This document shows, piece after piece, positions 36,806 to 64,000 of a stretch of 64,000 nucleotides of DNA. Every line of letters starts with the position of its first letter. Position 1 is the first letter of the stretch. A program made the translations under genes and the position numbers. The notes under the pieces were generated by a model. The model did no database searches. It was not told the DNA's origin and saw nothing but the letters and a program-made list of their open reading frames with translations. The stretch is from Anaerolineae bacterium (lineage in GTDB: Bacteria; Chloroflexota; Anaerolineae; Aggregatilineales; Phototrophicaceae). The stretch covers positions 62,001 to 126,000 of the forward strand of contig JANWYT010000031.1 of assembly GCA_025055175.1 (NCBI GenBank), written 5' to 3'.

Positions 36806-36816
36806 GAGAGGCCGCC

Positions 36817-44063: not shown

Positions 44064-44068
44064 GAGTT

Positions 44069-47000
44069 ATGACCGCGAGTCGCACGCAACTTCCTCCTAG
44101 CGAACGGATTATTCGCCGTATTGCTCCTGTCTTCATCCTCTCTTTAGGCCTCGTCGTCTTGCTGGCGGTGGCCAACGTCGTGTTATCCAACGTGACGCGC
44201 GTGGAGGAAATGCACCGCAACACGCTGGATCGCGCCAACTTCGCCCTCAGCGCCCTGATGGAACGCTACTTCCAGGCGCTCCAATCCATCGCCAACGACG
44301 CTCGTCTAAACACCTTCGCCAGAGATAACGCTGATCCGCGCGCCGCCACCCAGCGCGCTCGTGACGTCATCGCCGGCGATCCTAACACCTACCAGGCCGT
44401 GCGTTACATCAGCAGCAGCGGCAGAGTCGCTCTAGAAGTGCGCAATGTGCGCGGTTTTCCCCAGATCAGCATCGGAGCTACCGTCGGTCTGCAGGCCATG
44501 AACTTCAGGAACGACCTGGCTTACCTGTCAGCGCTCAGCGGCAGCAGCGCTCGTATCTTCATCGGACGCTTCAACTTGCGGACCAGCGAGGACGATCAGC
44601 CGCTGCTCGTGCCGCGCGTCTACTTCCCGTTGTATGCCCCCATCTTCGTCGACGACAAAGTAAGCGGCGTTGTCCAAGTCGAAATCAATGCTGCCGACTT
44701 GCTGAACATCATCAACAACGCCGACGCAACTTTCATGGATGAGCTGCCAGAACGTCACCTCAGCCTGATGATTCGCCCCGATACCTACATCGCTGACAGC
44801 GGTTCGTCCAGCCTAGCCTACTTGAATAGCATAGAAGCCATCAACGGCAACATCAGCAACGACCATGAAAATGCCCATTGGCGCCAGCTCTACCGCCGCC
44901 CCGACCTGATGACAGCTTATGAAGGCGGCCTGATCCTCTCCACTCTGGGACTGAACTTTGGTGGTGCTGAGCCGACTCAATGGCGTCTCATCTTGCAAGA
45001 CAATCTGTTCGTCGCTTATTCTGGCACAACTGGCGTTGCTGCTTTGATGGTGGCTTTCGCTGGAGCAGCTGCTCTGGCGGCGGCCGTCATCACGCGGCGC
45101 GCCATCGTGCCGCTGGTCATGCCGATGGAAGAAGCCGACAAGATGGCGCTGGCCCTGGCCCAAGACGACATCGACGCTCTGGAGAAGAGCGCTGCGCTGG
45201 CCAGCACCACCCCCAGCGGCGAGAGCATGATCGAAACCATCCGCAGCCTGGCCAAACGCATCGAGGCCCTCAATGAATCGCTCAGCCAGCAGATCAACCG
45301 CCGCAACCGCGACTTGCAAGTCGCTGGGCGCATTGGCCGCGAGACGGCCGTCTTGGATGATCTGGATGTGCTGCTCAGGCGCGCCATCAACCTCATCTGC
45401 AACGAATTGGGCTTCTACCACGCCCAAGTCTTCCTATTGGATGACGTAGGGCGCGTTGCACGCCTGGCCTACAGTCGCGGTGACGCCGGCCAACAAATGC
45501 TGGCGCGCGGCCACCAGATCGAGGTCGGCACGAAGACTGTCATTGGCACAGCCACTGCTCAGCGCCGCCCCGTCATCATCAACGATACGCTGGCTCAGCA
45601 AGGCGAAGTCCCCTTCGGTTTCAATCCGCTGCTGCCAGAGACGCGCGCCGAGATGGGCCTGCCGCTCATGATCGGTGACCAGGTCATCGGTGCGCTGGAC
45701 ATTCAGAGCAAGACGCCCAACGTCTTCCTTCAAGAAGAGCTGCCTACCTTCCAACTCCTGGCCGACCAGTTGGCAATTGCCATTTACAACGCTCGCCTCA
45801 AGGCTCAGGCTGAGCGGCGCTACCAGCAGATCAACCGCCTGAATCGCCAGCTCACCCGCCAGGCCTGGGACGTGGCTCGCCGCGAAGCTCAGCTCAAGCC
45901 ACGCTACGGCGCCGAGACCCTAGGGGAAGAGGTCAGCACAGCGCCCATCACCATTCGCGGTGAGGTCATCGGCAGCTTAACCGCCGCCATCCCCGCCGCT
46001 GAACTCGGCGAAGGCGAGCGCATGATCCTCAACGCCGTCGCTGAACGCGTCGCCCTGGCCATCGAAAACGCCCGCCTATTTCAGGAGACGCAATCTGCCC
46101 TGGCAGAGACCTCCACCCTCTATCAGCTCAGTCGCACCCTCAACGAGGCGACCTCTCTCGACGACGTGCTTCAAGCTATCGTCAGCCTCATCGCCCCCGA
46201 CGCCAGCAGCGGCCAGGTCTGGCTGTTTGATGACTACCCACCTGGCAGCGACCCGGAATGGGCGCGCCTGAGCCTGGATTTGCCTTTGCAGCCGCGCCGC
46301 ACCGATCTCATGCGCGAAGACCCTCTCCTGCGCCTAGACAACTATCCGCTGCTCCAAGCTATGCGACCTGACGATGTTTTAGCTATTGAGCGCTTGGAAG
46401 ACGTCGAGCAAGACGCACGCCTGCAAATGTTCCTAGAAGGCGTAGAAGCCGAATCTGCTGTCTTTGTGCCGCTCAACATGCGTGGCATATGGCGTGGCTA
46501 TATCGTCCTGCTCTTTGGGCAACCGCGCACCTTCAGCGAACGCGAGCGTCGCATTTACAGCACCCTCATCGCTCAGGCTGGCGCCGCCATCGACAACCGC
46601 CTGCTACTGCGCCAAACAGAAGAAGCTTTGTCGCGTAACGAAAAGCTCTACGCCGCCAGCCGTATCATCAACACCGCCCTCAACCCGTCCGACCTGGTCT
46701 ACGCCGCTGTCGCCACCACAAACGATCCTTCTATGAGCTTCTGGCTGGCGCTGCTGGAACACATTGAAGGCAGCGATGATCCCTGGGACGTGAACGTCCG
46801 CCTCATTGCTCGTTCTGTCCAGGGCGCTGTTGAGGAGGCTGATGAAGTCCTCAACTTGCGCATTGATCCGAACTCAGCTGTGCGCCGCCGCGAGCCAGAG
46901 ATCGTCGTCGAACCCAATGCAGCCATAACCGACGTACCGCCTCTCGTCGAATGGATGCGTCAACAGGGCCAACGCTTCATGGCTATCTTCCCGCTCTTCA

Positions 47001-50000
47001 GCGAGAACCAGCCCATCGCCCTATTTTTCCTCACTTCGGTGTTGAACTATGAGCTTTCGTCGGAAGACTACGACGTCTATAAGGCTCTCACTGGTCAAAT
47101 GAGTACCCAAATCCAGAATTACCGCCTGTTGGCCCGCACGGAGCAAGCGCTCAATGAGACGCGCCGCTTATATGTAGCCAGCCGCGCTGTCTCTAGCGCT
47201 CAAGATATGCTGGGCATTTACGAAGCTATGGTCGGTCACCTGACCACGCCCTTCCTGCGCGGTGTGGCTGAAGGCACGGCCATCATGCTCTCGCTTTGGT
47301 TCGCCCGCCCCAGCTCGCGCCGAGACGCCCCCAACTTGGAGCTAGTCTACCAATACGTCAGCGATGATCGCCGTCCTAGCATGAGGGTTGGCGAAGTCAT
47401 CGCCCACCAAGACGCGCCCTTCAGTGCCCTCCTGGAAGAATCCGACGATAACTTCCTGCTCTACAAAGACCTGAGCGCTGTCCCTGGCTCGCTCGTCCTG
47501 CGCACAGTTTTGGGACAGGCTCGCATGAAGGCTGCCGCCATCGCCGAACTCAGCACCCGCACCCGCTGGTTCGGCGTCCTCATCTGCCATACCAATCGGC
47601 CTGACTTGCTAGACGAGAGTTACGTGCGCTTCATGCGCGCCATAGCCGATCAGGTCTCCGTCGCCCTCGAAAATCAAACTCTGCTGCGCGAAGCCGAATT
47701 CGAACGCGAGAACCTCAACCAAATTCTCTCCACCCTGCCCGCTGGCGTCATGGTACTCGACCCCGACACCTACCAGCCGATCCAGAACAACCAGCGCGCC
47801 GAAGAGCTGCTGGGCCGCTCTATCGATCAAGAGCAGCCCTTCGCCGCCAAAGCCTATCGCCTGTTCCGCAGCAGCAGCCAGAGCTTCTACCCCGACGATC
47901 AACTGCCTGTTTACCGCGCCAACCGCACTAATCAGGCTGCCTTTGGTGATGATATCGCCGTCATCCGTGAAGACGGCACACAAGTCGATCTGCTCATTAA
48001 TGCTGCTCCTATCTACGACGCCAACGGACGCAAGATGGCCATCGTCACTGCTCTCCAGGACATCAGCAATCTGCGCAGCCTAGAGAACACCCTGCAAGAG
48101 AACCTGCGCGAGACGGTGGCACTTTACGAGACGCAGCGCGCTCTGTCTGAAGCCAACACTCTAGAAGAGGTGCTGGATCGCCTCATCGAACAGCTCAGCA
48201 CGCAGCAGGTCAGCGACGCCTACATCTTACTCGCCCCAGAGACCTCCGAGGACGCCCCTATCCTGGCCCGCTACCTGTTCCGCCCTCTAGACGACACAGA
48301 GGCGCTCAGTCCTCTCCTCAGCGAGTCGCCGATCATCATAGATGACGCTGAAGCTGAAGGGCTAGTGCCGCCCTGGACGCGCCAAGCGTTGGAAAACCTC
48401 CACATCCGTTCTGTCCTCGTCGCGCCGCTGCGCCCCAAGACCCGCTCGCGCGCTATAGGCTGGATTATGTTGACCAGCGACGCGCCGCACCACTTCAATC
48501 CAGAGCAAGAGCGCGTCCTCGGCACCATCAGCGACATGGCGTCAACTGCTCTGGATAACACCTTCCTAATCGCCTCAACCCAGGCTGCTCTCCAGGAGAC
48601 TGCTGCTCTCTACAGCGCTACCGCCACCATCAGTCGCGCCCGCAACCTGGAGGAACTGCGCAGCGCCATGCAAAACGCCATTGAAGCGCTACACGCAGAC
48701 TACTACGGGACATTCCTGCTGACAGAGAGGGGCATCTCTGTGTTGTTCTCGTTTGGCACAGAGCGCCTCAGCGAGCAAGATCACCATCGCTTGGCCCTAG
48801 CCGAGCTTGGCGAGGATGGCCAGGTCTACATCTCCGATCTGAGGCGCGCCACTTCGGGCGAATTTGAGCGCGAAGTCCTCAAGATCGGCGACGTGCAGGC
48901 CGTGGCTGCCGTCAACCTGCGCGCCAAAGACTTACGAGGCGGTCGTCTGTTCGTCGGCTATCGCCAAGTCTACCGCTTCCAGGAAGGTGACATCCGCTAC
49001 TTGAACACCATCGCCGACAGCGCCTCCGTCGTCTTGGACAACATCACTCTGCTCGAACAAATTCAAAGTACGCTGCAAGAGACCAGCATCCTGTACCAAG
49101 CCTCGCGCGCTCTCACCGAGGCCAACTCGCCGGCTGATATTGTGGACGTGATCGTCAACTATCTGATCGAACCCCACATCGACCAAGTGTTCATCGCCCT
49201 GCTCAACCGCCCCACTTGGGACTCGCCATCAGCCCACGTGGAGGTCGCGGCTAGTTGGCACAGCGAAGACGAGATCAACCTCCAGGGCATTATCTTGACG
49301 GCTGAACAGTTCCCCGCCTGGAAGTACTTGGCCAGCGAATCCGTCGTGGTTATCGAAGACGTGGAAGACCCCAACCTGCCGCTGAGCGACATCGAGCGCA
49401 TCAGCATACGCAGCCTAGACACCCGCTCGGTAGTGATTGCGCCGCTGCGCGTGGTCAACCGCGCCATTGGCGCGATCTGGCTTGGTTCGCGCCAAGCTCA
49501 TGATTACACCGACCGCGACGTACGTATCTTCCAGGCCTTCGCCGAGCAAACCTCGCTATCGATGGAAGCGACGCGCCTGCTGGAACAGACAGAGCGCCGC
49601 GCTGCGCAGTTAGAGACGACCGCACAAATCTCCGAGCGCGTCGGCAGCATCCTCGATCTGGACGTGTTGCTGCCTCAGGTGGTAGAGCTGATCCGCGAGC
49701 GTTTTGGCTACGATCATGTCCAGGTATTCATGATGGATGACAACAACGAATGGGCTTTGCTGCGCGCTAGCACGGGCAGAATTGGCCAGGAACTGCTGGC
49801 CATCGGCCACAAGCTCAAGCGCGGCTCAGAGTCAGTCATCGGCCAGGTGACAGCGCGCGGCGAGCTGACCGTTGCCCTAGACACTGCCGACGCCAACGTC
49901 GTCCATAAGCCCAACCCCTACCTGCCGCTCACCCGCTCTGAGCTGGCTCTGCCGCTCAAGATCAAAGGTGAGGTCGTCGGCGCGCTCGACGTACAGTCCA

Positions 50001-52246
50001 ACCAGCCCAACGCCTTCAGCGAAGAGGACATCCAAGCGCTGACGACTCTGGCGGCCCAGATCAGCGTCGCCATCGACAACGCCCGCCTGTACGAAGAAGC
50101 CTTCGCTCGCGCCCAAGACATGTCCTTCCTGTTCGACATCACCAACGCTGCCGCCACCGCCGAGACTCTAGACAAGGCCCTGCGCGAGATTACCCAGCGC
50201 GCCATGATAGCCCTCAACGCCATCAACGCCGTCATTTATCTGCCGCAAACTTACCGCGACTACAAGGACAACACGCTCGTCATGCTCAAGCCGATGGCGC
50301 TGGCTGGCCAAGGGCAACCGCTCAGTGAATTGGCCGAGGTCGCTCTCAACGACAGCGAAAACCTCGTGGCTATCGCTGCGATTGGCCTGCAGCCAACCAA
50401 CGTGCGCAACGTCGAAAAAGAGGTGCGCTACCAACCCATCGCTAGCAACGCTCGCTCGGCCATCCTCATCCCTGTCGCCAGCGCCAACGAGCTGGTCGCC
50501 ATGCTGCTGTTAGAGTCCGCCCAACTCAACGCCTTCAGCCACGACGACCTGACGCTGTTGCTCACCCTGGCTGGCTCAGTCAGCGCGATCATCCAAAACG
50601 GCCTGCTGGTGGAGCAGCTCCAGGCCACCAATGAACGTCTGCGCGAAGTTGACCGCCTCAAGAGCCAGTTCTTGGCCAACATGAGCCATGAACTACGTAC
50701 TCCGCTCAATTCGATCATCGGCTTCAGCCGCGTCATGCTCAAGGGGATCGACGGCCCGTTGACGGAGATGCAGGAGCAAGACCTGACCACCATCTACAAC
50801 AGCGGCAACCACCTACTCAACCTCATCAACGATATCCTCGATCAGGCTAAGATCGAAGCCAACGAGATGACCCTCAAGTTCGCTTACTTCGACATCAAGG
50901 CCGTGATCGAAGGCGTGCGTTCGATCGCCATCGGCCTAATCAAAGACAAGCCGCTGGAGCTGTTCGTCGAAATTGCCCCCAACCTGCCCCAAGCCTACGG
51001 GGATGACTTCCGCACCCGCCAAGTCTTGCTCAATTTGGTGAGCAATGCCATCAAATTCACTCCTGAAGGCAGCGTGACCGTCCGCACCTACCTCACTGAA
51101 GACAGGCAGGGCCGTCCGCGCCTGCGCATTGACGTGATCGACACTGGCATAGGCATTGCCGAAAAAGACCTCCCCATTTTGTTCGAAGCCTTCCGTCAGG
51201 TCGATTCGTCGCTCACCCGCACCGTGGGCGGCACAGGCCTGGGCCTGCCTATCTCCAAATCGTTGGTGGAGCTGCAGGGCGGCGAGCTGCTGGTGTCCTC
51301 GACCGTCGGCGTCGGCTCAACCTTCAGCATCACCATCCCCACCGAGCCAGGCGCAGAGGAGATTTTGGCTCGTCGTCGCGCTCAAAGCCAAAGCCTGAGG
51401 AGCGACGGTCACAGCACTGATACCGCACTCGTACCTCGCCCTGGTGACCCACGCGAGACCCAAAGTGCGCCCAGAGTCGTGCCACCCATGCCAATTATGC
51501 CTGCCAAGCGCGATGTTCTGCTGATTGAAGACAACAAGGATATGGTTGACCAGTTCCGACGAGTCTTACAGCGCCAGGGCTTCGAAGTCCAGACTGCCGA
51601 TCATCCAGCCTACGCCGAAGCGATGGTGGGTCAGCTGCGGCCTACCGTCGTCGTGATGGACGTCAACTTCGCAGATGGTCGTGGTTGGGAGATCCTCAAG
51701 AACCTCAAGAAGCGCGACGACAGCTTCGACATTCCGATCATCGTCAACAGCCTCAGCACGGAGAGCGAACGCGCCTACCAGCTAGGGGCATACCACTTCA
51801 TCCAGCGTCCCTTCACGCCCGATAAACTGGTGGAGGTCGTCCTGCAGGCCGAGGAAGAGAACAACGTCGCTCGTATCGTCGTCATTGACGACCGTCCTGA
51901 AGACGCGCGCTTGATCGAACAACTGCTCAGCGAACGCGGCACTTATCGCGTCTTCGCCGCCAACAACGGCAAGGACGGCATTTCGATGGTGGCCCGCCGC
52001 CGCCCCAGCCTGGTCATCCTAGACCTGCGCATGCCAGAGATGGACGGCTTCGCCGTGTTGAACGAATTGCGCAGCAACCCAGAGACGGCCAAAATTCCCG
52101 TCCTGGTCGTCACTGGCGACCTCAATCTCAGCCAGGCAGAACAGGACGCCCTGGCCAATGTGCGCGTCGTCCCCAAAGCCGAAATCAGCCAGCAGGAGTA
52201 CGAACGCTTCCTGGATGACGTGCGCAAGCACCTCAACGGAAACTGA
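44069..52246 (+). CDS. Giant hybrid sensor histidine kinase with about ten GAF modules
   Basis: About 2725 residues. Order: membrane span (about 15-42), extracytoplasmic sensor (45-312), second span (315-348), HAMP (345-400), GAF (430-575), half GAF (600-675), GAFs at about 690-855, 865-1035 and 1040-1220, PAS (1220-1350), and GAFs at about 1355-1515, 1517-1678, 1680-1850, 1852-2020 and 2022-2190. HisKA follows with His2207 (ANMSHELRTPLNS), then HATPase with DTGIGIAEKD and GTGLGLPISK, then two receivers. Most GAF modules are joined by short repeated signalling helices such as ALAETSTLYQLSRTL. The first receiver has Asp (VVVMDVNFADG) but Arg in place of the conserved Lys (FIQRPF); the second is complete. 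I start at 44069, where AAGGA is 8 nt upstream; 44060 (ATGA overlap) is the alternative. Confidence 0.9.
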   Translation: MTASRTQLPPSERIIRRIAPVFILSLGLVVLLAVANVVLSNVTRVEEMHRNTLDRANFALSALMERYFQALQSIANDARLNTFARDNADPRAATQRARDVIAGDPNTYQAVRYISSSGRVALEVRNVRGFPQISIGATVGLQAMNFRNDLAYLSALSGSSARIFIGRFNLRTSEDDQPLLVPRVYFPLYAPIFVDDKVSGVVQVEINAADLLNIINNADATFMDELPERHLSLMIRPDTYIADSGSSSLAYLNSIEAINGNISNDHENAHWRQLYRRPDLMTAYEGGLILSTLGLNFGGAEPTQWRLILQDNLFVAYSGTTGVAALMVAFAGAAALAAAVITRRAIVPLVMPMEEADKMALALAQDDIDALEKSAALASTTPSGESMIETIRSLAKRIEALNESLSQQINRRNRDLQVAGRIGRETAVLDDLDVLLRRAINLICNELGFYHAQVFLLDDVGRVARLAYSRGDAGQQMLARGHQIEVGTKTVIGTATAQRRPVIINDTLAQQGEVPFGFNPLLPETRAEMGLPLMIGDQVIGALDIQSKTPNVFLQEELPTFQLLADQLAIAIYNARLKAQAERRYQQINRLNRQLTRQAWDVARREAQLKPRYGAETLGEEVSTAPITIRGEVIGSLTAAIPAAELGEGERMILNAVAERVALAIENARLFQETQSALAETSTLYQLSRTLNEATSLDDVLQAIVSLIAPDASSGQVWLFDDYPPGSDPEWARLSLDLPLQPRRTDLMREDPLLRLDNYPLLQAMRPDDVLAIERLEDVEQDARLQMFLEGVEAESAVFVPLNMRGIWRGYIVLLFGQPRTFSERERRIYSTLIAQAGAAIDNRLLLRQTEEALSRNEKLYAASRIINTALNPSDLVYAAVATTNDPSMSFWLALLEHIEGSDDPWDVNVRLIARSVQGAVEEADEVLNLRIDPNSAVRRREPEIVVEPNAAITDVPPLVEWMRQQGQRFMAIFPLFSENQPIALFFLTSVLNYELSSEDYDVYKALTGQMSTQIQNYRLLARTEQALNETRRLYVASRAVSSAQDMLGIYEAMVGHLTTPFLRGVAEGTAIMLSLWFARPSSRRDAPNLELVYQYVSDDRRPSMRVGEVIAHQDAPFSALLEESDDNFLLYKDLSAVPGSLVLRTVLGQARMKAAAIAELSTRTRWFGVLICHTNRPDLLDESYVRFMRAIADQVSVALENQTLLREAEFERENLNQILSTLPAGVMVLDPDTYQPIQNNQRAEELLGRSIDQEQPFAAKAYRLFRSSSQSFYPDDQLPVYRANRTNQAAFGDDIAVIREDGTQVDLLINAAPIYDANGRKMAIVTALQDISNLRSLENTLQENLRETVALYETQRALSEANTLEEVLDRLIEQLSTQQVSDAYILLAPETSEDAPILARYLFRPLDDTEALSPLLSESPIIIDDAEAEGLVPPWTRQALENLHIRSVLVAPLRPKTRSRAIGWIMLTSDAPHHFNPEQERVLGTISDMASTALDNTFLIASTQAALQETAALYSATATISRARNLEELRSAMQNAIEALHADYYGTFLLTERGISVLFSFGTERLSEQDHHRLALAELGEDGQVYISDLRRATSGEFEREVLKIGDVQAVAAVNLRAKDLRGGRLFVGYRQVYRFQEGDIRYLNTIADSASVVLDNITLLEQIQSTLQETSILYQASRALTEANSPADIVDVIVNYLIEPHIDQVFIALLNRPTWDSPSAHVEVAASWHSEDEINLQGIILTAEQFPAWKYLASESVVVIEDVEDPNLPLSDIERISIRSLDTRSVVIAPLRVVNRAIGAIWLGSRQAHDYTDRDVRIFQAFAEQTSLSMEATRLLEQTERRAAQLETTAQISERVGSILDLDVLLPQVVELIRERFGYDHVQVFMMDDNNEWALLRASTGRIGQELLAIGHKLKRGSESVIGQVTARGELTVALDTADANVVHKPNPYLPLTRSELALPLKIKGEVVGALDVQSNQPNAFSEEDIQALTTLAAQISVAIDNARLYEEAFARAQDMSFLFDITNAAATAETLDKALREITQRAMIALNAINAVIYLPQTYRDYKDNTLVMLKPMALAGQGQPLSELAEVALNDSENLVAIAAIGLQPTNVRNVEKEVRYQPIASNARSAILIPVASANELVAMLLLESAQLNAFSHDDLTLLLTLAGSVSAIIQNGLLVEQLQATNERLREVDRLKSQFLANMSHELRTPLNSIIGFSRVMLKGIDGPLTEMQEQDLTTIYNSGNHLLNLINDILDQAKIEANEMTLKFAYFDIKAVIEGVRSIAIGLIKDKPLELFVEIAPNLPQAYGDDFRTRQVLLNLVSNAIKFTPEGSVTVRTYLTEDRQGRPRLRIDVIDTGIGIAEKDLPILFEAFRQVDSSLTRTVGGTGLGLPISKSLVELQGGELLVSSTVGVGSTFSITIPTEPGAEEILARRRAQSQSLRSDGHSTDTALVPRPGDPRETQSAPRVVPPMPIMPAKRDVLLIEDNKDMVDQFRRVLQRQGFEVQTADHPAYAEAMVGQLRPTVVVMDVNFADGRGWEILKNLKKRDDSFDIPIIVNSLSTESERAYQLGAYHFIQRPFTPDKLVEVVLQAEEENNVARIVVIDDRPEDARLIEQLLSERGTYRVFAANNGKDGISMVARRRPSLVILDLRMPEMDGFAVLNELRSNPETAKIPVLVVTGDLNLSQAEQDALANVRVVPKAEISQQEYERFLDDVRKHLNGN

Positions 52247-54719: not shown

Positions 54720-55826
54720 ATGAAGATTCTACTCATTGAGGACGAGACAGCCTTGCGCGAGAACGTGAGCGAGATGCTGGAGCTGGAGGGCTTCGAAGTC
54801 TACAGCGCTGTCGATGGGCGCGACGGTGTAGAGATAGCTTTGCGCGTCCATCCCGATCTGATCGTCTGCGACATTGCTATGCCAGAGATGGATGGCTATC
54901 AAGTCCTCAAGACTCTGCGCGCTTATGAGGCGACGCTGGCCACCCCCTTCATCTTCCTGACAGCGCGCACGGATCGCTCCGATGTGCGTCAGGGCATGCA
55001 ACTCGGTGCAGACGACTACATCACCAAGCCGTTCAGCCATAAAGAGCTGATGGAGGCTATCCATGCTCGCCTGACCCGCCGTCAAGCTTTAGACGAACAA
55101 GCCAAACGTGATGTAGAGCGTATCAAGCGTGAACTCACCCAGATGGTGAGCCACGAGCTACGGACGCCGCTGGTGTCGATCACGATGGTACAAGAATATA
55201 TTAGCTCTCAGCTTGACCAACTCAGTCGCGAAGAACTGGTTGACCTGCTCAACATCTTGCGCGGAGGCAGCCAGCGCCTCAGCCATCTGGTAGAGCAGAT
55301 GGTCATGTTTACCCAGCTCCAGACCGGCATACTCGATCGCGAGCGCGTCCACAAAAACGCCGTCCTCACCGACTCCTGGACGCTAGTCGTGGCTGGGATC
55401 AACCTGGGACGGCGCTTCGCCTATCGCAACCCCAATCTGTCCATTCAAGCTCAGGAATATGCCCCAGGAGCGCGAGTCCTGTGTCACCCACCAACCATCT
55501 CTCATGCCATTGGTGAACTCATCGCGAATGCTCTGGACTTCTCGGCGGAGGGACAGACGATCAATGTTTATCAGTGGCTGGACGGTCAAACGGTCTGGGT
55601 GCAGGTAGTCGATCAGGGAGCAGGCATGCCTGGTGAACGCCTAGAGGACGCGCTCAAGCCTTTCGTCCAGATCAACCGCGAGCGACAAGAACAGCAAGGC
55701 ATGGGCTTGGGCCTGCCCCTGGCCAAGATGGTCGTCGAAGCACACGGCGGCCAACTCTATCTAGAGTCTGCATTAGGCCAGGGAACGAAGGCCAGCCTGA
55801 GCTTGCCCCTGGCCGAACAGACCTAG
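54720..55826 (+). CDS. Receiver-first hybrid histidine kinase (REC-HisKA-HATPase)
   Basis: A 368-residue soluble protein. An N-terminal receiver (residues 1-120) has Glu7-Asp8, Asp51 (IVCDIAMPEMDGY), Thr81 and Lys103. After a short helix comes HisKA with His145 (QMVSHELRTPL) and a HATPase domain (about 250-365, VDQGAGMPGERLEDALKPF and GMGLGLPLAKM). Receiver-before-kinase proteins usually relay a signal from one kinase into another, so a phosphate from the giant kinase or its receivers could regulate this protein. That is inference from architecture. Its stop TAG shares a palindromic CTAG with the stop of the convergent nuclease gene. Confidence 0.9.
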   Translation: MKILLIEDETALRENVSEMLELEGFEVYSAVDGRDGVEIALRVHPDLIVCDIAMPEMDGYQVLKTLRAYEATLATPFIFLTARTDRSDVRQGMQLGADDYITKPFSHKELMEAIHARLTRRQALDEQAKRDVERIKRELTQMVSHELRTPLVSITMVQEYISSQLDQLSREELVDLLNILRGGSQRLSHLVEQMVMFTQLQTGILDRERVHKNAVLTDSWTLVVAGINLGRRFAYRNPNLSIQAQEYAPGARVLCHPPTISHAIGELIANALDFSAEGQTINVYQWLDGQTVWVQVVDQGAGMPGERLEDALKPFVQINRERQEQQGMGLGLPLAKMVVEAHGGQLYLESALGQGTKASLSLPLAEQT

Positions 55827-56338
55827 CGGCGTTCGCTGCCATCTCTGAAGCTGCCCGTCGGATGGCAGCCCAGGCCTCGGCGGGCGGCTTCCCGTTCCAG
55901 GGCCACGAAGTCGCGCCAATGGCGGTCGTCTGGCTCATACAGGACGGCTTCGGCGTAGCCGCTGGCCACTAGTTCGCGATTGACGAAGACCGAGCCGACG
56001 TAGACGTAACGCAGCAGACGGTCGAAGCGGTCAGTATCGCTCTGGTCGCGGACGAGAGTCACAGTCTGGCCCTCCACCAGGGCGCGATTGGCTTCCAGCG
56101 CTTCTTGATAGCAGACTTCATCCGACTCTGGGGTGTTCACGCCGACGTAACGCACACGCACGCGCTGGCCGCCAAGCTCCACTTCAATCGTGTCGCCGTC
56201 GATGACGCGGCGCACGCGCGCCGTCTCTCCCGACGGTGATGGGCCTACCACTCCTGTTGACACAGGCATACCTGCGTTCAAATCCAAGCCAGAGCAGGCA
56301 GCGAGGAGGGCCGCCAAACAAAGCAATGACAGTCTCAT
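55823..56338 (-). CDS. Thermonuclease-family (SNase-like) lipoprotein
   Basis: A 171-residue protein with a lipoprotein signal: hydrophobic core and LAAC with the lipid-bearing Cys15. Residues of about 39-160 are a staphylococcal-nuclease fold: VIDGDTIEVEL with Asp48 and Asp50, RYVGVNTPE with Arg63 and Glu71, and DRFDRLLRYVYV with the second catalytic Arg. The usual VDTPE is VNTPE, so one calcium ligand is Asn, a variant common in this family. It would cleave DNA or RNA at the cell surface. The start overlaps the preceding gene (ATGA), and the gene is the last of the leftward envelope operon. Confidence 0.88.
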   Translation of the reverse strand: MRLSLLCLAALLAACSGLDLNAGMPVSTGVVGPSPSGETARVRRVIDGDTIEVELGGQRVRVRYVGVNTPESDEVCYQEALEANRALVEGQTVTLVRDQSDTDRFDRLLRYVYVGSVFVNRELVASGYAEAVLYEPDDRHWRDFVALEREAARRGLGCHPTGSFRDGSERR

Positions 56339-57234
56339 GAGCGGCTGCGGGCCGCGCGGGCCAGGACAATGACGCCCATGAGGCCGAAGGCCATCAGCAT
56401 AAACAAGCCAGGATTGCTCGCCAGATCATCCAACAGACCTGTGTCAGGCAAAGCAGGGCCGCCTATGGCAGGCGTCGCGATGGGCGTGCCGCGAATTGTA
56501 CCGCCGATGGGGGTGGGCGTGGGCAAGCCTAGTCCAGCCGGGGTGGGCGTGGGCTGACTGAAGAGCTGGGCCAGGCGCGTGGCCGTCGCTTGCACATCTG
56601 CGATGGATAGGCCACCAGTGACGCGCTCTGGCGTAGGGGTGGCTTCTTCATCCTGCGCCGCAGCGAGCGCCGTTTGGGTGGCCTGGAGCGGCTGCAAAGC
56701 AGCGGCAGTCTGTAGAGCCTGCTGCGTGCTTGCGATGGCCTGCTGCGTGGCGAGGACGAAGACCGCCTGGGCAGTGAAGGTAGCGCCAATAGCCTGGGCA
56801 GTGGCGGTGATGTCTACCGTCGCAGTGGGCGAAGGCGAGGGCGTAGGCGAAGCAGCCAGTGCAGTACTCGTCAGCACAGCAGCAGCAGTGTTGGTAGCAT
56901 CGACGGCGGCGGCTTGGGCCAGCGTCGTAGCGTTGACCTCTGCGATGGCTGTGCGCGTCGGATCAAGCGGATCGACTCCACCGCTGGTCAGGGCGAAGAT
57001 CAGCACGCCAAAGCCCACCAGCAACACCACGATGAGCAGGACAGCTAGGATGATGAAACCTTTGCTCGGCCCTTGACTTTGTTCAATCGTCGGCTCTCGC
57101 TCATCGTCGAGGTCTTCGCTGAAAATGTCCTGGCCGAAGTCGATGTCGCTGTCTGGATCAACATCGCGGCTGTCCCCGAAGAAATCGTCATCGTCATCGC
57201 GCATAAAATCGCGCAGATCATCGTCTTTGGACAT
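56335..57234 (-). CDS. Two-span envelope protein with LPDTG motif near the C terminus
   Basis: A 299-residue protein. The N-terminal 55 residues are strongly acidic (many Asp/Glu), then a membrane span at about 58-82. A Thr/Ala- and Gln-rich extracytoplasmic stretch follows, ending in Pro/Thr/Gly repeats. At residue 262 LPDTG is followed by a second hydrophobic segment (about 276-292) and a basic end (ARAARSRS), the order of a sortase sorting signal. With the first span, the predicted topology is N inside, middle outside. No sortase gene is in the window. Function unknown. It overlaps the nuclease gene by 4 bp and follows the 57289 gene by 54 bp. Confidence 0.72.
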   Translation of the reverse strand: MSKDDDLRDFMRDDDDDFFGDSRDVDPDSDIDFGQDIFSEDLDDEREPTIEQSQGPSKGFIILAVLLIVVLLVGFGVLIFALTSGGVDPLDPTRTAIAEVNATTLAQAAAVDATNTAAAVLTSTALAASPTPSPSPTATVDITATAQAIGATFTAQAVFVLATQQAIASTQQALQTAAALQPLQATQTALAAAQDEEATPTPERVTGGLSIADVQATATRLAQLFSQPTPTPAGLGLPTPTPIGGTIRGTPIATPAIGGPALPDTGLLDDLASNPGLFMLMAFGLMGVIVLARAARSRS

Positions 57235-57288
57235 GCGCCTTCGCTCCCTGATGCCGTGTAAACACTCTTATCATAGACTGAAACGTCG

Positions 57289-58359
57289 CTATCTGCCACT
57301 GACTTCTAAATTCGCTAACGGGATTTGAACGACTTCCCCCAAGCCCAGATCGACGGTGGCACAGGCCACCCGCAGCCCGTTAGGCAGAGTCATCAGGCCA
57401 CGCGGCAGATCGACGACGCGCCCCTGTTGACCGTAATACGGCTCGCGGACGACGCGCACCTTGCTGTTGCGGCGCAGCACAAGGTGCAGATCGACGGCTT
57501 GGGGCGCGTCGCCAGCGCGCGGGATGACCAACTCTGGACGGCGAGCGGCGCTGCGACGCGGCTTGTAGGCGTCGATGATCGCTTGGTAGCTCTCGAACTC
57601 GCGCAGCAGGGCCAGGGCCTGTTCGCTCATCGTCAAATTGCCGAAGCCCTCCGTCAGCAAGACAGCCATCTCCATCGCCATCACGCGCGGGATCAAGTTG
57701 GCGCTCATGCTAGGAGCAATCAGGCCAGCGAAGTTGCGTTCTTCGGCGATGTACAGGGCGCGTTCGCTGATAGGGCGCGTGCTGACGACAATTTCGTTCC
57801 TGTAAGCCTGATCGAGCGAGTCGGGAGACAGAACTTCCACGCCGTCGGCAGGCTCAAGGCGCAAGTAAGCAATGCGCCGCTGATCGTTGCCCCACACTCC
57901 CTGCAAAATCGCCCCGCTGGTGCTGATGCTCAGGCCCTCGTTCCCGTAGATAGCGCTCACTGTGCCACGCACGCCGGCTTCCAACTCAAAGACCTCCGGA
58001 GCAGCCTGCATGATGATCCGCCCGCCGCCTACGTAGACGATCAAGCCGTCAATCGGGGCGAAGATGCGCTTGCCGCGTTTCGGATCGCGACCAGCAATGG
58101 CCGTGCCTTTCTCCACAACGACGCGCTCTTTGACCAGCAACAACTTGCTCAGTTCGGCAGGGTCGTTCAGGCGCAACTCCTGGGCAGCTTCGATGATGAC
58201 GTGCCGACTGGGGACGAAGCCGCGCAGTACCTTATCGCGCACGTCCACTGCGCGCCCCTCGGTCATCAGCACGACGCCAATCGCCTCAGCGGGCAGGCGC
58301 GTCTCGCGCTCAAAGTGGCCCTGAGACGTGATGATCCGTTGCTCTGGGAAGTAGCTCAT
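57289..58359 (-). CDS. Conserved-context beta-rich protein of unknown function
   Basis: A 356-residue soluble protein that I do not recognise. RIFAPIDGLIVYVGGGRIIMQ (about residues 105-125) resembles a lipoyl/barrel-sandwich type strand pair. PYYGQQGRVVDLPRG near residue 310 resembles a KOW-type loop. RNFAGLIAPSMSANLIPR and FESYQAIIDAYKPRRS lie between. It overlaps the MutL-like gene by 4 bp, so the two are co-translated and probably work together, perhaps in an envelope or scaffold role suggested by the membrane proteins around them. No catalytic motif was seen. Confidence 0.65.
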   Translation of the reverse strand: MSYFPEQRIITSQGHFERETRLPAEAIGVVLMTEGRAVDVRDKVLRGFVPSRHVIIEAAQELRLNDPAELSKLLLVKERVVVEKGTAIAGRDPKRGKRIFAPIDGLIVYVGGGRIIMQAAPEVFELEAGVRGTVSAIYGNEGLSISTSGAILQGVWGNDQRRIAYLRLEPADGVEVLSPDSLDQAYRNEIVVSTRPISERALYIAEERNFAGLIAPSMSANLIPRVMAMEMAVLLTEGFGNLTMSEQALALLREFESYQAIIDAYKPRRSAARRPELVIPRAGDAPQAVDLHLVLRRNSKVRVVREPYYGQQGRVVDLPRGLMTLPNGLRVACATVDLGLGEVVQIPLANLEVSGR

Positions 58360-60407
58360 AGCAAGTCTCTCAAGTCCATGTCGTCATCCAACGGCGCGGT
58401 GGCGCGCTTTTTGCCCGTCTGACCTTTGGCCGCCCCGTCTGGAGCAGAAGGTTTTTCGCCGATTAAGGCGGCGAATTCATCTTCCAGATCATCGTCGTCG
58501 CTGCGGGTGACGACGGTGGTCTTCTTGGCTTCCTGGGTTGTCCTGCGCCCACGCCCCTTGTCTGGTTTGGGCGCGCTGCTGAACAAGCGACGGCGGCGGC
58601 GCGGCTGCTCCCCGCGCAAGTCATCCAACACGTCATCTGCGTTGGAGGTTGTCTCGTCGTCCTGATGGGTGGAGACCATCAGCCATTCGGGCGGAATCTC
58701 AGGGGCGGGCCGATCAGTGGCTTCGTGATACCACAGGGGCAGTTGAGCCGCGCGCGCAGCCAGGTCTTGAGCAGGCACGAAGGCTCGTCCGCGCGCATCA
58801 ATCAGGATTCCGCCTTCGCCGCCCTCTAGCTTCAAGCGCAGGCGCGTCTCGCGGCCCACGCGCACGCCTCGGCTGGTCGTCAGGACGATCTCCAGATGGG
58901 CATTGGCGGGCAGTGGCAACGAGAGCAAATGGCCGCCCTTGACTTCGGCGCGCAGCGTCTCGCCGTCCTCAGTCTTGATCTTCAAACGAGCAGCGCGGCG
59001 CTCAGGTGCGATGTTCCCATGCAGGCTAACCAGGACGCCCAGGCGCGTGAAGGCCGTCTCGCTCACTTGGACGAAGGCGGCGCTGTTGACTTGGGCTATC
59101 GCCCCCAAGGTGGCAGCAGCGCTGTAGGGATCGGCGTAAACTTCAGCTATGCCCAGAGGTTGCAAACTGTCGGCCAACAAGAGCAAGCTGTGGAAGGCAT
59201 CACCCGTGCGCGTGAGAGTAGAGCCGCAGGCGAGGATCCGCTGCGGGGCAAAGCCCTGCCGTGGCGTGAGCTGGACTTCAGCCATCAGAGCGCGTAAATT
59301 GGCGCGGGCCAAGCCGTGTTCCAGGTAGAGTTCCCGCAAGGTCACAGGGATAGTGGCAGGTCGTAGCGATTTGTTCAGGACGTAATGCTGAATTTCGTAG
59401 GGCTGAGGGTGGAAAGGCAACCAGGCCGCGATAGCTGCTTCTCCTACGTCTTCCCAGGCTGTGTCGGCGCTATGGCCCTGGCCCAGGCGAGCATCGGTGC
59501 GCAGTTGCAGCGTGCCGCCCTCGGCGTAAGCCACCGAAGCAGAGGCACTGCCCAGGTCGACCAGGGCCACACTTTGACCATGAACCCGCTGTATATATTG
59601 GGCTAGCAGCGCGTAGCTCTCGGCGCTAGGACGCAGACCGACAGCGCTCAGGCGGCCCAACGCCGAGAAGCGTCCGTCGCGACGCTTGAAGAAAGCGTCA
59701 TAAGCAGTGGCAATGGCGCTTTGCGCCCCATCCAGGCTCATCGTCCCGACGGCAGGCATGAGGTTGGACGTGAGGATACACTCGCACAGGCCCTCAAAGC
59801 GCTCGGTCACCTCTTCGGCCAGGGCCTGGTTGCCGCCATAGACGATGACGGGTCGCTGATTGCGATCGATCAGGGCGACGGCGAACTGTACCTCCTTCAC
59901 CAGCTTGGCCAGGCGTTCTTGAGCGCCTCCCTCTGTGCCACCCACGATCAGGATCAGGTCGGGACGGCTGAGGATGATGGCGTTCAGGCGCTGCTCTTCA
60001 TCGCGTCCGTCCATCAGGTGGATTTGCTCCACGATCTCCACTGTAGTGCGACTGAGGGCGCGCCGCGCCGCCAACAGGCTGGTTTGGGGCAACAGACCCA
60101 CTAGCAGAGCGCGTAGGGCGCGGCCTGCACTAGTGGTGGCGATGAAAGAGTCGACGCCGCTGCGGTCTTCGCGCTCTGGCGTGATGATTCGGTTGTTCTC
60201 GTCCAGCAGGTTGCGCACTCCGTTCTGAGCCATCTCGCGTAGTTGGCGGCGCAAGCCCACGAGGACATCGTTGATGGGCGCGCCGATGGTGGTCAGGCCT
60301 TCGCTGCGGGCGATGATGCGATACTCATGGTCTACCACGTCCAGCAGCAGGACGCGCGTCCAGACGCTGCCAAATTCTGCCCCCAACAGGGCGCCGCTCG
60401 TGGTCAT
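58356..60407 (-). CDS. MutL (glutamate mutase L)-like ASKHA-fold protein
   Basis: A 683-residue protein related to the MutL family (Pfam MutL), which is named after a protein encoded with glutamate mutase in clostridia. It has two actin-like phosphate loops, GAEFGSVWTRVLLLDVV near residue 8 and VALVDLGSASASVAY near residue 275. An adenosine-type block, ILACGSTLTR, is near residue 393. Here there is no mutE/mutS gene beside it, so a role with glutamate mutase is unlikely. The C-terminal 110 residues are an acidic and basic low-complexity tail (RRRRRLF, DDDDLEDEF). It sits in an operon of membrane proteins. ATP binding is plausible; the function is unknown. Confidence 0.8.
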   Translation of the reverse strand: MTTSGALLGAEFGSVWTRVLLLDVVDHEYRIIARSEGLTTIGAPINDVLVGLRRQLREMAQNGVRNLLDENNRIITPEREDRSGVDSFIATTSAGRALRALLVGLLPQTSLLAARRALSRTTVEIVEQIHLMDGRDEEQRLNAIILSRPDLILIVGGTEGGAQERLAKLVKEVQFAVALIDRNQRPVIVYGGNQALAEEVTERFEGLCECILTSNLMPAVGTMSLDGAQSAIATAYDAFFKRRDGRFSALGRLSAVGLRPSAESYALLAQYIQRVHGQSVALVDLGSASASVAYAEGGTLQLRTDARLGQGHSADTAWEDVGEAAIAAWLPFHPQPYEIQHYVLNKSLRPATIPVTLRELYLEHGLARANLRALMAEVQLTPRQGFAPQRILACGSTLTRTGDAFHSLLLLADSLQPLGIAEVYADPYSAAATLGAIAQVNSAAFVQVSETAFTRLGVLVSLHGNIAPERRAARLKIKTEDGETLRAEVKGGHLLSLPLPANAHLEIVLTTSRGVRVGRETRLRLKLEGGEGGILIDARGRAFVPAQDLAARAAQLPLWYHEATDRPAPEIPPEWLMVSTHQDDETTSNADDVLDDLRGEQPRRRRRLFSSAPKPDKGRGRRTTQEAKKTTVVTRSDDDDLEDEFAALIGEKPSAPDGAAKGQTGKKRATAPLDDDMDLRDLL

Positions 60408-60411
60408 AGGC

Positions 60412-61017
60412 TTAGCCTCCCCCGAAGATGGTGCTGAGCTGACCAGTCAGGATGGCCAGGCTGGTCAGGATGGCTGCCCCGTAGAGCGCTCCAAGCGTCA
60501 CCACGACAAAGCCCTGACCGAGGGCCATCAGGCCACTGAGCAAGCGCGGGCGCGTCAGCGCGCCGTCAGGGCGACGACGGACAGCGTACTGGAAGTACAT
60601 CAGCGAGCTGACGACGCCGACGAAGATCAGCAGCGTCTCAGCCAAGCCATTAGGCGAAGGCGTGGCTGTCTGGGCCATCAAGGGCAGCAGCGTGCCGCTG
60701 ATGGCGCCGATCAGGGCAACGGCTGAGCCGACGGCGATCAGCAAGGCCAGAGCTAGGTTGCTGATGGGCGTGAGGAAGCGCAGCGGCTTGAGCAGCAGCA
60801 GAGCCACCAAGATCAGCCCACCGATCAGCAGCAGCGCGTTCAGCGGATCGCCATCGACCAGCGGCAGGATGACGCCTTCGACGGTGGCAATCACGGTGAA
60901 GGCGGCCGCCAGACCGACGAAAGCGTACATGGCTAGGCGGAACAGCCAATTATCGCCCAGCAGGTAACTGAGGACGATCAGACTGAGGGCGAAGCTGAGC
61001 AGGGTCTCCAAGCTCAT
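60412..61017 (-). CDS. Six-span integral membrane protein, function unknown
   Basis: A 201-residue protein with about six hydrophobic segments covering nearly the whole length (starting [19 protein letters not shown]) and short polar loops, the longest near residues 147-160 (RRRPDGALTRPR). No transporter signature is recognised. It begins in a 4-bp overlap with the SH3 protein gene and ends 4 bp before the MutL-like gene, so all are one operon. It may anchor the SH3 protein and the MutL-like protein at the membrane; that is inference. Confidence 0.7.
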   Translation of the reverse strand: MSLETLLSFALSLIVLSYLLGDNWLFRLAMYAFVGLAAAFTVIATVEGVILPLVDGDPLNALLLIGGLILVALLLLKPLRFLTPISNLALALLIAVGSAVALIGAISGTLLPLMAQTATPSPNGLAETLLIFVGVVSSLMYFQYAVRRRPDGALTRPRLLSGLMALGQGFVVVTLGALYGAAILTSLAILTGQLSTIFGGG

Positions 61018-64000
61018 GAGCGCCTCCGACGGATGAGCGTGCGGATCAGGACGTACAGGTTCGAGAAACCAATCATGAAGACAGCCGCCAGCGTGGCCAG
61101 GGTGAAGGCGCCGTAGCGGATGCTGCCCGATGTGGCCTGGTCAGTCGGGCCTCCGAGCAGCTCAGGAGTGCTTTCAAGACTGGGAGTGGGCGTAGGCGTC
61201 TGAGTAGGACGCGCAGTGGCCGTCGGAGCGGGCCTGGTGGGCGTGCTGCTGGCGAGTGCTTCAGTGGCTTCAGTGGGGGTACTGGTGGCGAGCGTAGCTA
61301 AAGGCGTAGAGCTAGCTGCTACACTCAGCTCGCTGATAGGCCGCTCAGCAATCTCTACGACGAAGGCTTCTAGCCAAGCTAACTGGCCATCGGGCAGCAC
61401 CACTTGCCACCAGCTTTGGTCGGCGTTGGGGCGCAGTACGCGCAGCACGACCCCCTCATCCAGCGTACTGACGACGCTGCCGCTGACTTCAGGCTGATCC
61501 AGCGCTTCGATCGGGCCTGCGACGATGACGCGCGCCGTCAGGATGTTAGGCGCTGTGGCGGTAGCTTGCTGAGATGGGGAGCGCAGCTTAGCCAGGCGCG
61601 ACGGCTGTGGGGCGCTACTACGCCGTTCGAGGTCTTCTGGCGGGCGTTCTTCGAGGCGCACCAGGCCGGCGGAGACCCAACCCACGCGCCCATCAGGCAG
61701 GATGATGTTCACCCAATCGCCTGCATCGTTCGTCCTCAGGACGCGCACCAGCGTTCCGCGCGCGATGCGCGTGACGATAGCTGCCTGGGTGCTGGGCAAT
61801 TCGCGCACGTTCAGGTTGTCGGCGGTGACGATGGCCACCAGCACAAGCTGCGGGCCGAGCGGCGTAGCCGTGACTTCCGTCGTGGGGGTGAAGGTAGGCG
61901 AAGGCGTGAAGGTGGGCGGCAGGGTGGGGCGAAGCAGGGCTGTCGGCGTGGGCAGCGGCGTGTTGCTGGGGGTCAGACTGGGCGTCGGCGTGTCGGTGGC
62001 CAGCGGCGTCTCGGTGGGCGTGAGCGTGGGCGTGCTGCTGGGCGTAGGGCTGAACAACGGCGTCTGCGTTGGCCTAGGGGTGTTGGTAGGCGTCGGCGTG
62101 TTGGTGGCCGTAGGCGTAGGCGTGGGCAGGATCGCCTGAGGGTTGAGGGCGCGCAAGAGGCGGTCGTAGGCCAGAGCGTCGCCGATCCCCACCAGGTAGC
62201 CGCTGACGTTGGGGCTGCTGACCAGATAAGGCAGGCTGAAGGGCAGAGCCGAATAGCCGACAGCGACTACGAAGGGCGCGCGAGTGTTGGGCGACACCTG
62301 TTCTAACCAGGCGCGCACTTGCTCGGCGTCTTCGCTGATGAGGATGATCGCCGCCAACTGATCCAGCGAGTCTAGAGACAGGCCACTAGGCTGGCCTTCG
62401 TAGGTCTTGCTGAAGAAGGTGCGCGGATCGCGGGCCATGTTGCGCAGGCCAATTACCCCACCCGTCAGGTAGGGCGCACGGACGATCTGCAAGCCCTCCA
62501 GGTCTGCCAGCAGCGCAGGAGCGCGCAGGGCTGCCACCGCATTGCTGCTGACGATGATTGGGCGCAAGCGCTTAGCCTGCAAGTGGCGGAACAGGGCTAG
62601 CGTCAAGCCATCCAACTCTTGAGAAGCGCCCGCCCCGTATTCCAGCGCCACCAGCACCGCGTTGCCAGCAGCCATCATGTCCAGGCGGACGAAGGCGCTC
62701 ATGCCATTATCTTCCTGGCTGAAGCTGGTTGGCGGCTCGCTGACCGAGACGTTGAGGGCGACGGGCGTCATAGCGGCCATCAGCAGGATGAGGGCCACCA
62801 ACAGGCGGCCCAAATCAGGCAGGCGGCGGGCGCGCCGCTGGGGCGCAGGGCCTTTGAGGATATCTTCGATCACCTGGGCGCGCTCGGCTTGTAGCGGGCT
62901 GAGGCGCAGGCCGAGGGCAGCGCTGTGGGCGCGCAGCGGATCAATCAGAGTGGCCGAAGCCAGCGTCGAGGCCATATCAGGGACGAGTTCCTGTAAGCTG
63001 GATGGGCTTTCCGCTTCTCCGCGCGAGGTACTAATGTTGAGGCCCATCTGGTGCAGAGCCTGCAAGCGTTCGTCCAGCGTCTCAATTGGTCGATCTTGCT
63101 GGGTGCGCACCAGGGCAGCGGCGCTGCGCTGGCGGCTGGGAGCGCTGGCAGCAGCGCGCAGGGCGCGCACCAGCTCGTTCTCATCTTCTTCGGCGGGGAC
63201 AGTGGGCATGGCCGCGCGGCGCGCCGAGGGCGTGGGCGGCTCAGCGGGGCGATCCGCGCTCAGGGCCAACAAAGCGTCTAGGTCAACCTCGGCTTCTTTG
63301 GGCGACTGAGCTTCCGTCTGAGCAGCGGGCTGTTCACCCAGCGCACCGAGCAAATCGTCCAGATCGTCCACTAGGCTCAGCGGCTCGTTCATCGCTTCAG
63401 CGCTCGATGGTGGACTGCTGCTCATGTCGCTCAGCAGGGCGTCCAAGTCGTCCAGCGTCAGCGAGGGCTGTTCTGTGCGCAGCTCATCAACATCAAAGTC
63501 AGCGCTGGCAGACCGCAACCATTCAGTGTCCACAGTTATGTCGTCAGGCGCAGGGACGCTGGCGTCTTTTCCGCGCTCAGCGAGCGGCCCAGTCTGCGGC
63601 AAAGAAGTGATCGTCTGTATGCTGCTCAGCCAGTCAGGTTCAGGGTCGCTGATGTCCTGGCTCAGACTTTCATCGAAGAAGCCCCAGTCGCTCTCCTCGC
63701 GGGTGCTACCCAGCGGCTCGGACTGAGCCACGAAGCCCCAGTCGCTCTCGTCTTGGGTGCTGCCTAGCGGCGGCGCAGCATCGAAGAAGCCCCAGTCGCT
63801 CTCATCTTGGGTGCTGTCTGGCGGCGCAGCTTGGGCCATGAAGTCCCAATCGGAGTCGCTGAGGGCAGCCTGCGGCTCAGCCGCACCCAAGTCATCAGGG
63901 ACATCTTCGCCCAAGTCGGCCATCCAACTCGGCAGCGCGGGTTCTGCTGTAGATTGTTGGGATACAGCGCCGAAGTCGTCGGGCAGGTCGGCCATCCAAT
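61014..64000 (-). CDS. Large two-span protein with two bacterial SH3 domains, N terminus cut by the right window edge
   Basis: At least 994 residues are visible and the frame is still open at the window edge. A start codon at 63995 is unlikely, because the codon before it reads Trp and WMADL recurs about 23 residues later, so the repeat continues upstream. Visible parts: acidic repeats with SDWGF units, a disordered region, and a membrane span in the middle ([17 protein letters not shown]). An extracytoplasmic alpha/beta region follows, then a Thr/Pro linker and two SH3-like domains ([14 protein letters not shown] and then [14 protein letters not shown]). A last membrane span ([20 protein letters not shown]) is followed by a basic tail. 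SH3-like domains of this type bind wall or glycan. It is upstream of the six-span gene. Confidence 0.8.
61870..62130 (-). repeat. Low-complexity Thr/Pro-encoding stretch
   Basis: The plus strand is an almost continuous run of GGCGTNGG and GTGGGCGT words. Translated on the minus strand it gives repeated TPTPT and PTxTP units, an extended extracytoplasmic linker between the membrane-proximal domain and the SH3 pair. It is prone to slippage and misassembly. Confidence 0.7.
63654..63869 (-). repeat. Four 54-bp tandem repeats in the SH3 protein gene
   Basis: The word GCCCCAGTCG recurs at 63681, 63735 and 63789, and a variant (GTCCCAATCG) at 63843, each 54 bp apart. Each unit encodes 18 residues with an ESDWGF or SDWDF core and an acidic/Pro linker. 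The three inner copies are nearly identical, pointing to recent tandem duplication. Confidence 0.85.

Follow-up and report, generated by a model that had tools for sequence, protein, structure and literature searches.

A MutL-like protein and its partner P356 at the core of a conserved Chloroflexota gene unit with a candidate tryptophan-motif docking array

We describe here a gene unit found in a stretch of 64,000 nucleotides from an Anaerolineae bacterium (hereafter the window), comprising bases 62001-126000 of one 150,660-base contig in a genome of 3.38 Mb (37 contigs, 89% complete). Six leftward open reading frames (ORFs) in the window share one strand and follow one another closely, either overlapping or separated by short gaps (Table 1), and two of them encode a protein of the MutL family and a 356-residue neighbour, P356. 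Our surveys demonstrate that the MutL-like protein and P356 are the core of the unit, which is almost certainly real and conserved and is very probably unrelated to glutamate mutase.

The ORF with SH3 domains is truncated by the window edge. Upstream of it on the same strand lie a 220-residue multi-span ORF (M220), a 262-residue ORF matching DUF6754 (PF20539, 1.4e-18; 67 bits against a cut-off of 27) and an 86-residue ORF. A small ORF of this kind (86-160 residues, with a conserved core) is found directly 5' of DUF6754 at L034:10852-11112 and at 12 other loci, and is probably the first gene of the operon; a promoter and terminator scan gave the same result as shuffled sequences. An earlier note on this DNA had described six tightly coupled leftward genes. 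The six ORFs do overlap or nearly touch, but the SH3 gene is longer than it was taken to be (1138 residues when complete), M220 and DUF6754 belong to the unit as well, and the nuclease counted as an operon member occurs in only 1 of 97 loci, that of its own genome, and is incidental to the unit.

Table 1. Leftward genes of the operon within the window (positions are those of the window).
Feature	Position	Strand	Remarks
Big bitopic scaffold protein, 1138 residues	61014..64000 (61014-63995 within window)	-	start about 430 bases beyond window
TM1, 201-residue six-span membrane protein	60412..61017	-	six hydrophobic spans; homologue in 34/34 loci
MutL-like protein, predicted ASKHA fold, 683 residues	58356..60407	-	PF13941
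P356, 356 residues, core partner of MutL	57289..58359	-	predicted barrel-sandwich hybrid, middle alpha/beta region and C-terminal KOW
LPDTG protein	56335..57234	-	acidic cytoplasmic N-terminus, span, Thr-rich stalk, LPDTG, second span; accessory, lineage-limited
SNase-family lipoprotein	55823..56338	-	PF00565 3.8e-12; co-directional, outside conserved unit

Conservation was assessed in 34 neighbourhoods of the window's own family and order (its own locus included), in one sample of 301 Chloroflexota genomes, and in a wide set of 97 loci (L034-L144, viral ones left out), 84 of which have the operon-type MutL. Across the family and order the unit recurs as DUF6754, six-span protein, big bitopic protein, six-span protein, MutL-like protein and P356, with a gene order that is constant over the 34 close loci, gene-calling noise aside. 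Profiles made from this family and order find MutL, TM1 and the big protein in all 34 loci, P356 in 32, and M220 and DUF6754 in 31; the three loci lacking the last two (L057, L058, L066) terminate at contig ends, and of the two without P356 one (L037) has a contig that stops 136 bases past MutL, while in the other (L046) the contig continues. PF13941, the family of the MutL-like protein, is present in 52 of the 61 genomes of the family and order.

Among the 301 genomes, PF13941 is found in 122, DUF6754 in 67 and the P356 profile in 184 (threshold E 1e-3), or 173 once 11 weak genomes are dropped. MutL and a strong P356 occur together in 110 genomes (110 of the 122 MutL carriers; Fisher p 3.5e-23), and 65 of the 67 DUF6754 genomes carry MutL (p 4e-29), these p values being uncorrected for kinship. 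The 12 MutL genomes without a strong P356 are G138, G235 (GlmL only), G241 (odd protein), G014, G062, G173, G229, G276, G286, G290, G303 and G324. Since a MutL recognized by our own profile adjoins P356 in 14 of the 20 P356-centred loci that were fetched, the 63 P356 genomes without a PF13941 match probably carry a divergent MutL; the six loci with no adjoining MutL are all Chloroflexia-like (L125-L129, L142), a label which, like 'Ktedonobacteria-like' and similar ones, is tentative and guessed from genome content.

P356 lies directly downstream of MutL on the same strand in 76 of the 84 operon-type loci, with a median gap of -4; the eight non-adjacent cases are L037 and L074, where the contig ends, and L046, L075 and L089-L092. 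None of the seven loci with a GlmL-type or odd MutL has P356. This adjacency is far above chance. The four membrane partners all stand beside MutL in 48 of the 84 loci (median gaps 3, 6, -4 and 5 bases), and other Chloroflexota families commonly have just MutL and P356, or these two plus a soluble zinc-ribbon protein. The earlier note had proposed comparing neighbourhoods across the phylum and had placed MutL among membrane and wall-binding partners; the neighbourhoods proved conserved, and such partners are present in many lineages but are not the core. The unit is larger, more widespread and less wall-bound than the note held. The MutL-P356 pair also occurs outside the phylum, in Bacillota (Symbiobacteriaceae, L070). 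We found no plasmid-borne relatives, and viral contigs yielded 13 pattern matches and one weak protein match with no convincing relative among them (two weak P356 scores, 0.0034). A search of the open-licence literature returned no description of this system, no paper naming DUF6754 and none joining 'glutamate mutase L' with Chloroflexi; judged from that literature only, the system seems undescribed, and its parts are known folds.

The MutL-like protein of the window matches PF13941 over profile positions 2-447 (E 5.4e-44; 151 bits against a cut-off of 27), which bears out its first naming, and is the only match above cut-off in its genome. It scores far below the NCBIfam cut-offs for GlmL (NF040745/TIGR01319, 69/475 and 44/204 bits; equivalog 69.4 against 475), and it has an extra C-terminal beta region and an acidic tail that are not present in GlmL. 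In a tree of 60 rows, whose root is arbitrary and in which several long branches were flagged, six GlmL rows form a clade (100/100) and are joined with four Symbiobacteriaceae rows (100/100), with the Chloroflexota operon type standing apart. One odd long row falls outside both groups; this 1264-residue protein (L099:4233-8027) matches PF13941 strongly, is not accompanied by P356, sits on a very long branch and is possibly another MutL subfamily. In the Symbiobacteriaceae (L070, L072, L073, L074) MutL is multicopy: each of the class's four genomes has three or four paralogues, that of L070 four. The three copies there with room downstream all have P356 next; one such pair lies 3' of a homoserine dehydrogenase gene and another 3' of a gene for an M50-like membrane protein.

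Most of the 70 operon-type rows retain the residues of the nucleotide site (D11 in 65, G13 in 68, T17 in 66, D284 in 63, G286 in 66 and G395 in 69), although the window's own protein has Glu at position 11, and we take these positions to be the ASKHA phosphate 1 (Asp/Gly/Thr), phosphate 2 (Asp-x-Gly) and adenosine (Gly) motifs. The MutL-like protein of the unit probably binds ATP. W329 is found in 64 of the 70 rows; the GlmL rows do not have it among their top residues. Sequence comparison with solved structures gave five weak matches only, at E 0.17 or worse. The structural model (predicted local distance difference test score, pLDDT, 66.8; predicted template modelling score, pTM, 0.65) is disordered past residue 569. 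A Foldseek search of the PDB with this model gave 208 matches (E 0.001 or better), in which a hydantoinase-like enzyme and acetone carboxylase come first and PilM, Ppx, FtsA and others after them. VIA aligned the model with FtsA (Z 12.7, 248 aligned, 4.8 A), acetone carboxylase (Z 12.4), PilM (Z 11.3, 233 aligned, 4.2 A) and the diol dehydratase reactivase (Z 10.7), and in these comparisons no single ASKHA subfamily stands out. Residues 95-243 alone resemble receiver and flavodoxin-like folds (CheY Z 11.3, 114 aligned, 2.5 A) and the B12-mutase small subunit (Z 10.3). The model thus describes an actin/ASKHA fold with an inserted flavodoxin/receiver-like domain, in agreement with the note's reading of the protein as actin-like, taken as a statement about its fold.

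A tie between MutL and glutamate mutase was considered and rejected. The methylaspartate mutase E subunit (MutE, PF06368) has no match over cut-off in the window's genome, where the best is 2.7e-4, and is found in 5 of the 301 Chloroflexota genomes, as against 122 with PF13941. It is not enriched with P356 either (3 of 5 genomes, Fisher p 0.64). The claim that this MutL stands away from any glutamate mutase is thus upheld, and neither a co-varying mutase nor unconserved neighbourhoods came to light.

P356 had been called unrecognized, and the window's protein alone indeed matches no Pfam family; its relatives do. In a scan of 32 of them with an E-value limit of 1, NQRA_N was matched in 16 (best 2.9e-5), RnfC_N in 15 (best 6.4e-7) and KOW in 14 (best 4.4e-4), and the 32-row profile matches Spt5 KOW domains (1.5e-9) and NqrA (0.008) in the PDB; a lysozyme match (1.1e-6) seems spurious. 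The AlphaFold2 model (mean pLDDT 59.3, pTM 0.44; 4 sequences) has no Foldseek match at E 0.001 or better. Its VIA list is filled by KOW domain matches, with residues 289-356 aligning to Spt5/NusG (Z 8.3, 54 aligned, 1.3 A); residues 51-121 align to RnfC (8ahx_C, Z 8.0, 62 aligned, 2.8 A) and NqrA (4u9o, Z 7.8, 63 aligned, 2.8 A). Such Z-scores are within reach of common arrangements, and the profile matches weigh more. Taken together they assign to P356 a predicted barrel-sandwich domain of the RnfC/NqrA type and a predicted KOW domain of the Spt5/NusG type; the region between them may be DRTGG-like. In the six Chloroflexia-like loci L125-L129 and L142, P356 is split from MutL and sits 5' of response-regulator and hybrid-kinase genes.

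The big protein of the window comprises an acidic cytoplasmic tail with tryptophan motifs, a span, an extracellular domain, two SH3_3 domains (1.3e-15), a second span and an Arg-rich end. Two hydrophobic spans are predicted in 45 of 53 big proteins, and outside the window's own family some 230 residues are often all that separates the two spans. The tail motif, defined strictly as P-x-W-[LMV], occurs 394 times on the N-terminal side of the first predicted span and never past it in 51 proteins. Counting ORFs of at least 150 residues, 51 of 1236 carry at least three strict motifs, and all 51 lie directly or one gene 5' of MutL on the same strand; the 1236 ORFs are local neighbours of MutL or P356 rather than whole genomes. 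These array-bearing proteins are 43 big proteins and eight soluble ones (L075-L081, L105) that the big-protein profile does not match, with the consensus [LV]-P-D-W-L-[RS] in the former and L-P-[ESD]-W-[LM]-R in the latter. In most tails a looser pattern clearly exceeds chance, as judged against composition-shuffled versions (L089 62 against a mean of 3.7, L090 42 against 2.9, L107 9 against 0.6).

Some lineages lack the membrane genes and have, 5' of MutL, a soluble zinc-ribbon protein with the same repeats. All seven soluble array proteins examined (L076-L081, L105) have a zinc-ribbon-like cysteine pattern at the N-terminus, as do several big proteins; the Pfam zinc-ribbon match of L105 falls under the Pfam cut-off (2.3e-4), and L076 has none. 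The motif array is thus kept while its bearer switches between soluble and membrane-anchored forms, and because the array persists as its carrier changes, we think that the motif may dock the common core.

The remaining membrane proteins are regular in layout, with two hydrophobic spans in 43 of 48 DUF6754 proteins, six in 43 of 48 M220 proteins and six in 38 of 52 TM1 proteins; the Pfam scan matched no family in TM1. Homology between DUF6754 and the extracellular domain of the big protein, and between the two six-span proteins, was tried with hhalign and rejected, neither alignment being significant (P 0.035, probability 1.4, and P 0.28). In 36 of 82 P356 loci the gene after P356 encodes an acidic two-span protein whose tail is LPxTG-like. 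The LPDTG protein of the window has the features of a sortase substrate, namely the LPxTG motif, a C-terminal span, a basic end and a sortase in the genome (three over cut-off), and is on these a predicted one; no cleaved signal peptide is evident, and its N-terminus resembles a cytoplasmic anchor. Elsewhere in the window, at 35192-52246 on the plus strand, consecutive GAF-domain ORFs (five scanned) end in a 2728-residue hybrid histidine kinase that bears two receiver domains in addition to many GAF domains.

Our data suggest a model for the activity of this unit. The MutL-like protein and P356 would act as a pair, forming the two-protein cytoplasmic core of a cell-envelope machine. The big protein, DUF6754, the multi-span protein and TM1 may form a membrane complex with an extracellular domain, to which in many lineages the core would be drawn by the [LV]-P-x-W-[LM]-R motifs that recur along the big protein's cytoplasmic tail; in other lineages the soluble zinc-ribbon protein, with the same array, could serve as the scaffold. 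Binding of the array by MutL or P356 would gather many copies of the core beneath the membrane complex, and the nucleotide state of MutL may set the grip, gathering or releasing partners on the multivalent tail. By analogy with PilM-PilN and FtsA-FtsN we infer that MutL or P356 is the motif binder, that MutL cycles ATP and that the unit acts at the envelope. Docking of an actin-fold ATPase on the repeated tryptophan motifs of an envelope scaffold is plausible, if short of probable. The fuller proposal is more tentative still, namely that MutL-P356 is the engine of a phylum-wide envelope machine that rides a multivalent PxWL tail of up to about 60 copies on a transmembrane scaffold, with scaffold and membrane parts swapped between lineages and engine and motif kept, and that it falls outside all known classes of secretion, pilus, division and redox complex.

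Several observations weigh against this proposal. Its support comes from sequence and models, ATPase activity and motif binding are putative, and the models of MutL and P356 rest on four sequences; FtsA and PilM are no better fold matches to MutL than acetone carboxylase. The window's own scaffold has two strict motifs and 12 tryptophans in all, and its score with the looser pattern (2 against 0.7 in shuffled tails) is not significant. L046 and L111 are without the motif, the big proteins of the f26 loci L084 and L085 reach their first span after only 23-30 residues, and no array gene adjoins the pair in the MutL-P356-only loci (e.g. L131, L132, L136, L137) or in Symbiobacteriaceae. In the four Chloroflexia-like loci L089-L092, P356 is encoded elsewhere in the genome, away from MutL. 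Finally, residue 11 of the window's MutL is Glu, as in 3 of the 70 rows where Asp prevails, and this may alter ATP hydrolysis in the window's species.

Other functions can be drawn from the same data. MutL might be a reactivating chaperone that, like GlmL or the diol dehydratase reactivase, exchanges a cofactor once it is damaged or remodels a single client, be it an enzyme or a membrane complex; P356 would then be its carrier or clamp. The Pfam family shared with GlmL, the grouping of the P356-bearing Symbiobacteriaceae copies with GlmL, the reactivase among the fold matches, the likeness of residues 95-243 to receiver, flavodoxin and B12-mutase folds, and the frequency of barrel-sandwich domains in cofactor carriers all lean this way; the neighbourhoods, however, hold no conserved client enzyme and glutamate mutase is missing from nearly all MutL carriers, and we regard this role as unlikely. 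Slightly less likely is a sensing and signalling unit in which the extracellular domain would report the envelope state through the tail to MutL-P356 and KOW would act on transcription or translation. The KOW match to Spt5/NusG is seen by both profile and model, and response-regulator and hybrid-kinase genes follow P356 in one group of Chloroflexia-like families, to which the kinase link is confined; KOW domains also serve as simple barrels that bind protein or RNA.

The strong form of the earlier note, in which MutL polymerizes like MreB or FtsA as a cytoskeletal element of wall growth or division and guides wall enzymes, we consider improbable. FtsA is the top VIA match to the MutL model, and the SH3 and LPDTG parts suggest a wall connection in the window's family. 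In the window's genome, moreover, PilM_2 (PF11104) has no match at E 0.001, though the same profile matched 9 of 14 controls, and SHS2_FTSA (PF02491) has none, MutL included. This missing FtsA stands out, since 284 of the 301 Chloroflexota genomes have it, and may be due to an absent contig. FtsA, however, coexists with MutL in most genomes, and MutL as an FtsA substitute was therefore rejected; no wall-synthesis gene is found among the conserved neighbours, and SH3 seems dispensable given the short inter-span part in other families. Least probable is a membrane redox or ion-pumping complex of the Rnf/Nqr type, with P356 in the place of RnfC/NqrA, the two six-span proteins in that of RnfA/RnfE and the bitopic proteins in that of RnfG: that likeness, beyond the presence of two six-span proteins, is limited to the N-terminal barrel of P356, the window's TM1 is without cysteine, the operon proteins hold no iron-sulphur or flavin Pfam domain, and the P356 core is also found without any membrane gene.

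The conserved unit has consequences for annotation, as the gene usually labelled 'glutamate mutase L' is part of something else in most Chloroflexota carriers, and the operon provides a common setting for DUF6754, two six-span families, the big scaffold and P356, for which Pfam has no separate family. The PxWL array is a directly testable candidate docking site. Were the proposed envelope machine borne out, the Chloroflexota, whose cell envelope is still little understood, would gain a new conserved envelope system, and an actin-fold protein would have been shown to act on a multivalent linear motif.

Comparison with known systems places the unit near several of them. With the accessory protein GlmL/MutL it shares the Pfam family and the ASKHA core; the operon-type MutL differs in its P356 partner, extra C-terminal region, separate clade, sub-cut-off NCBIfam scores and lack of a glutamate mutase. 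P356 has in common with the N-terminal domain of RnfC/NqrA the barrel-sandwich hybrid, with a C-terminal KOW domain instead of any other recognized Rnf/Nqr part. The 262-residue upstream protein is a member of the DUF6754 family, itself without an assigned function. The soluble array proteins recall Ruc/Rv0991c, a zinc-ribbon chaperone of DnaK, as zinc-binding proteins that would work with an ASKHA ATPase; no PxWL array is reported for Ruc in the accessible part of its account (PMC7448276). As far as excerpts of two further reports describe them, the IA-IC cleft is where FtsA holds the cytoplasmic tail (roughly 32 residues) of the bitopic protein FtsN and where PilM holds that of PilN (PMC7613929), and the PilM pocket takes a highly conserved N-terminal motif of PilN (PMC5805733). 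The present unit differs from these in having a long array in place of a single site, additional P356, DUF6754 and six-span proteins, and partners with no sequence homology found to PilN or FtsN. The PilN motif contains Leu-Pro-Trp-Arg, which would resemble the L-P-x-W-L-R of the array. What PilM-PilN and FtsA-FtsN share with the MutL unit is an ASKHA-fold protein and a bitopic partner with a linear motif at its cytoplasmic N-terminus, a role that the tryptophan array would play here.

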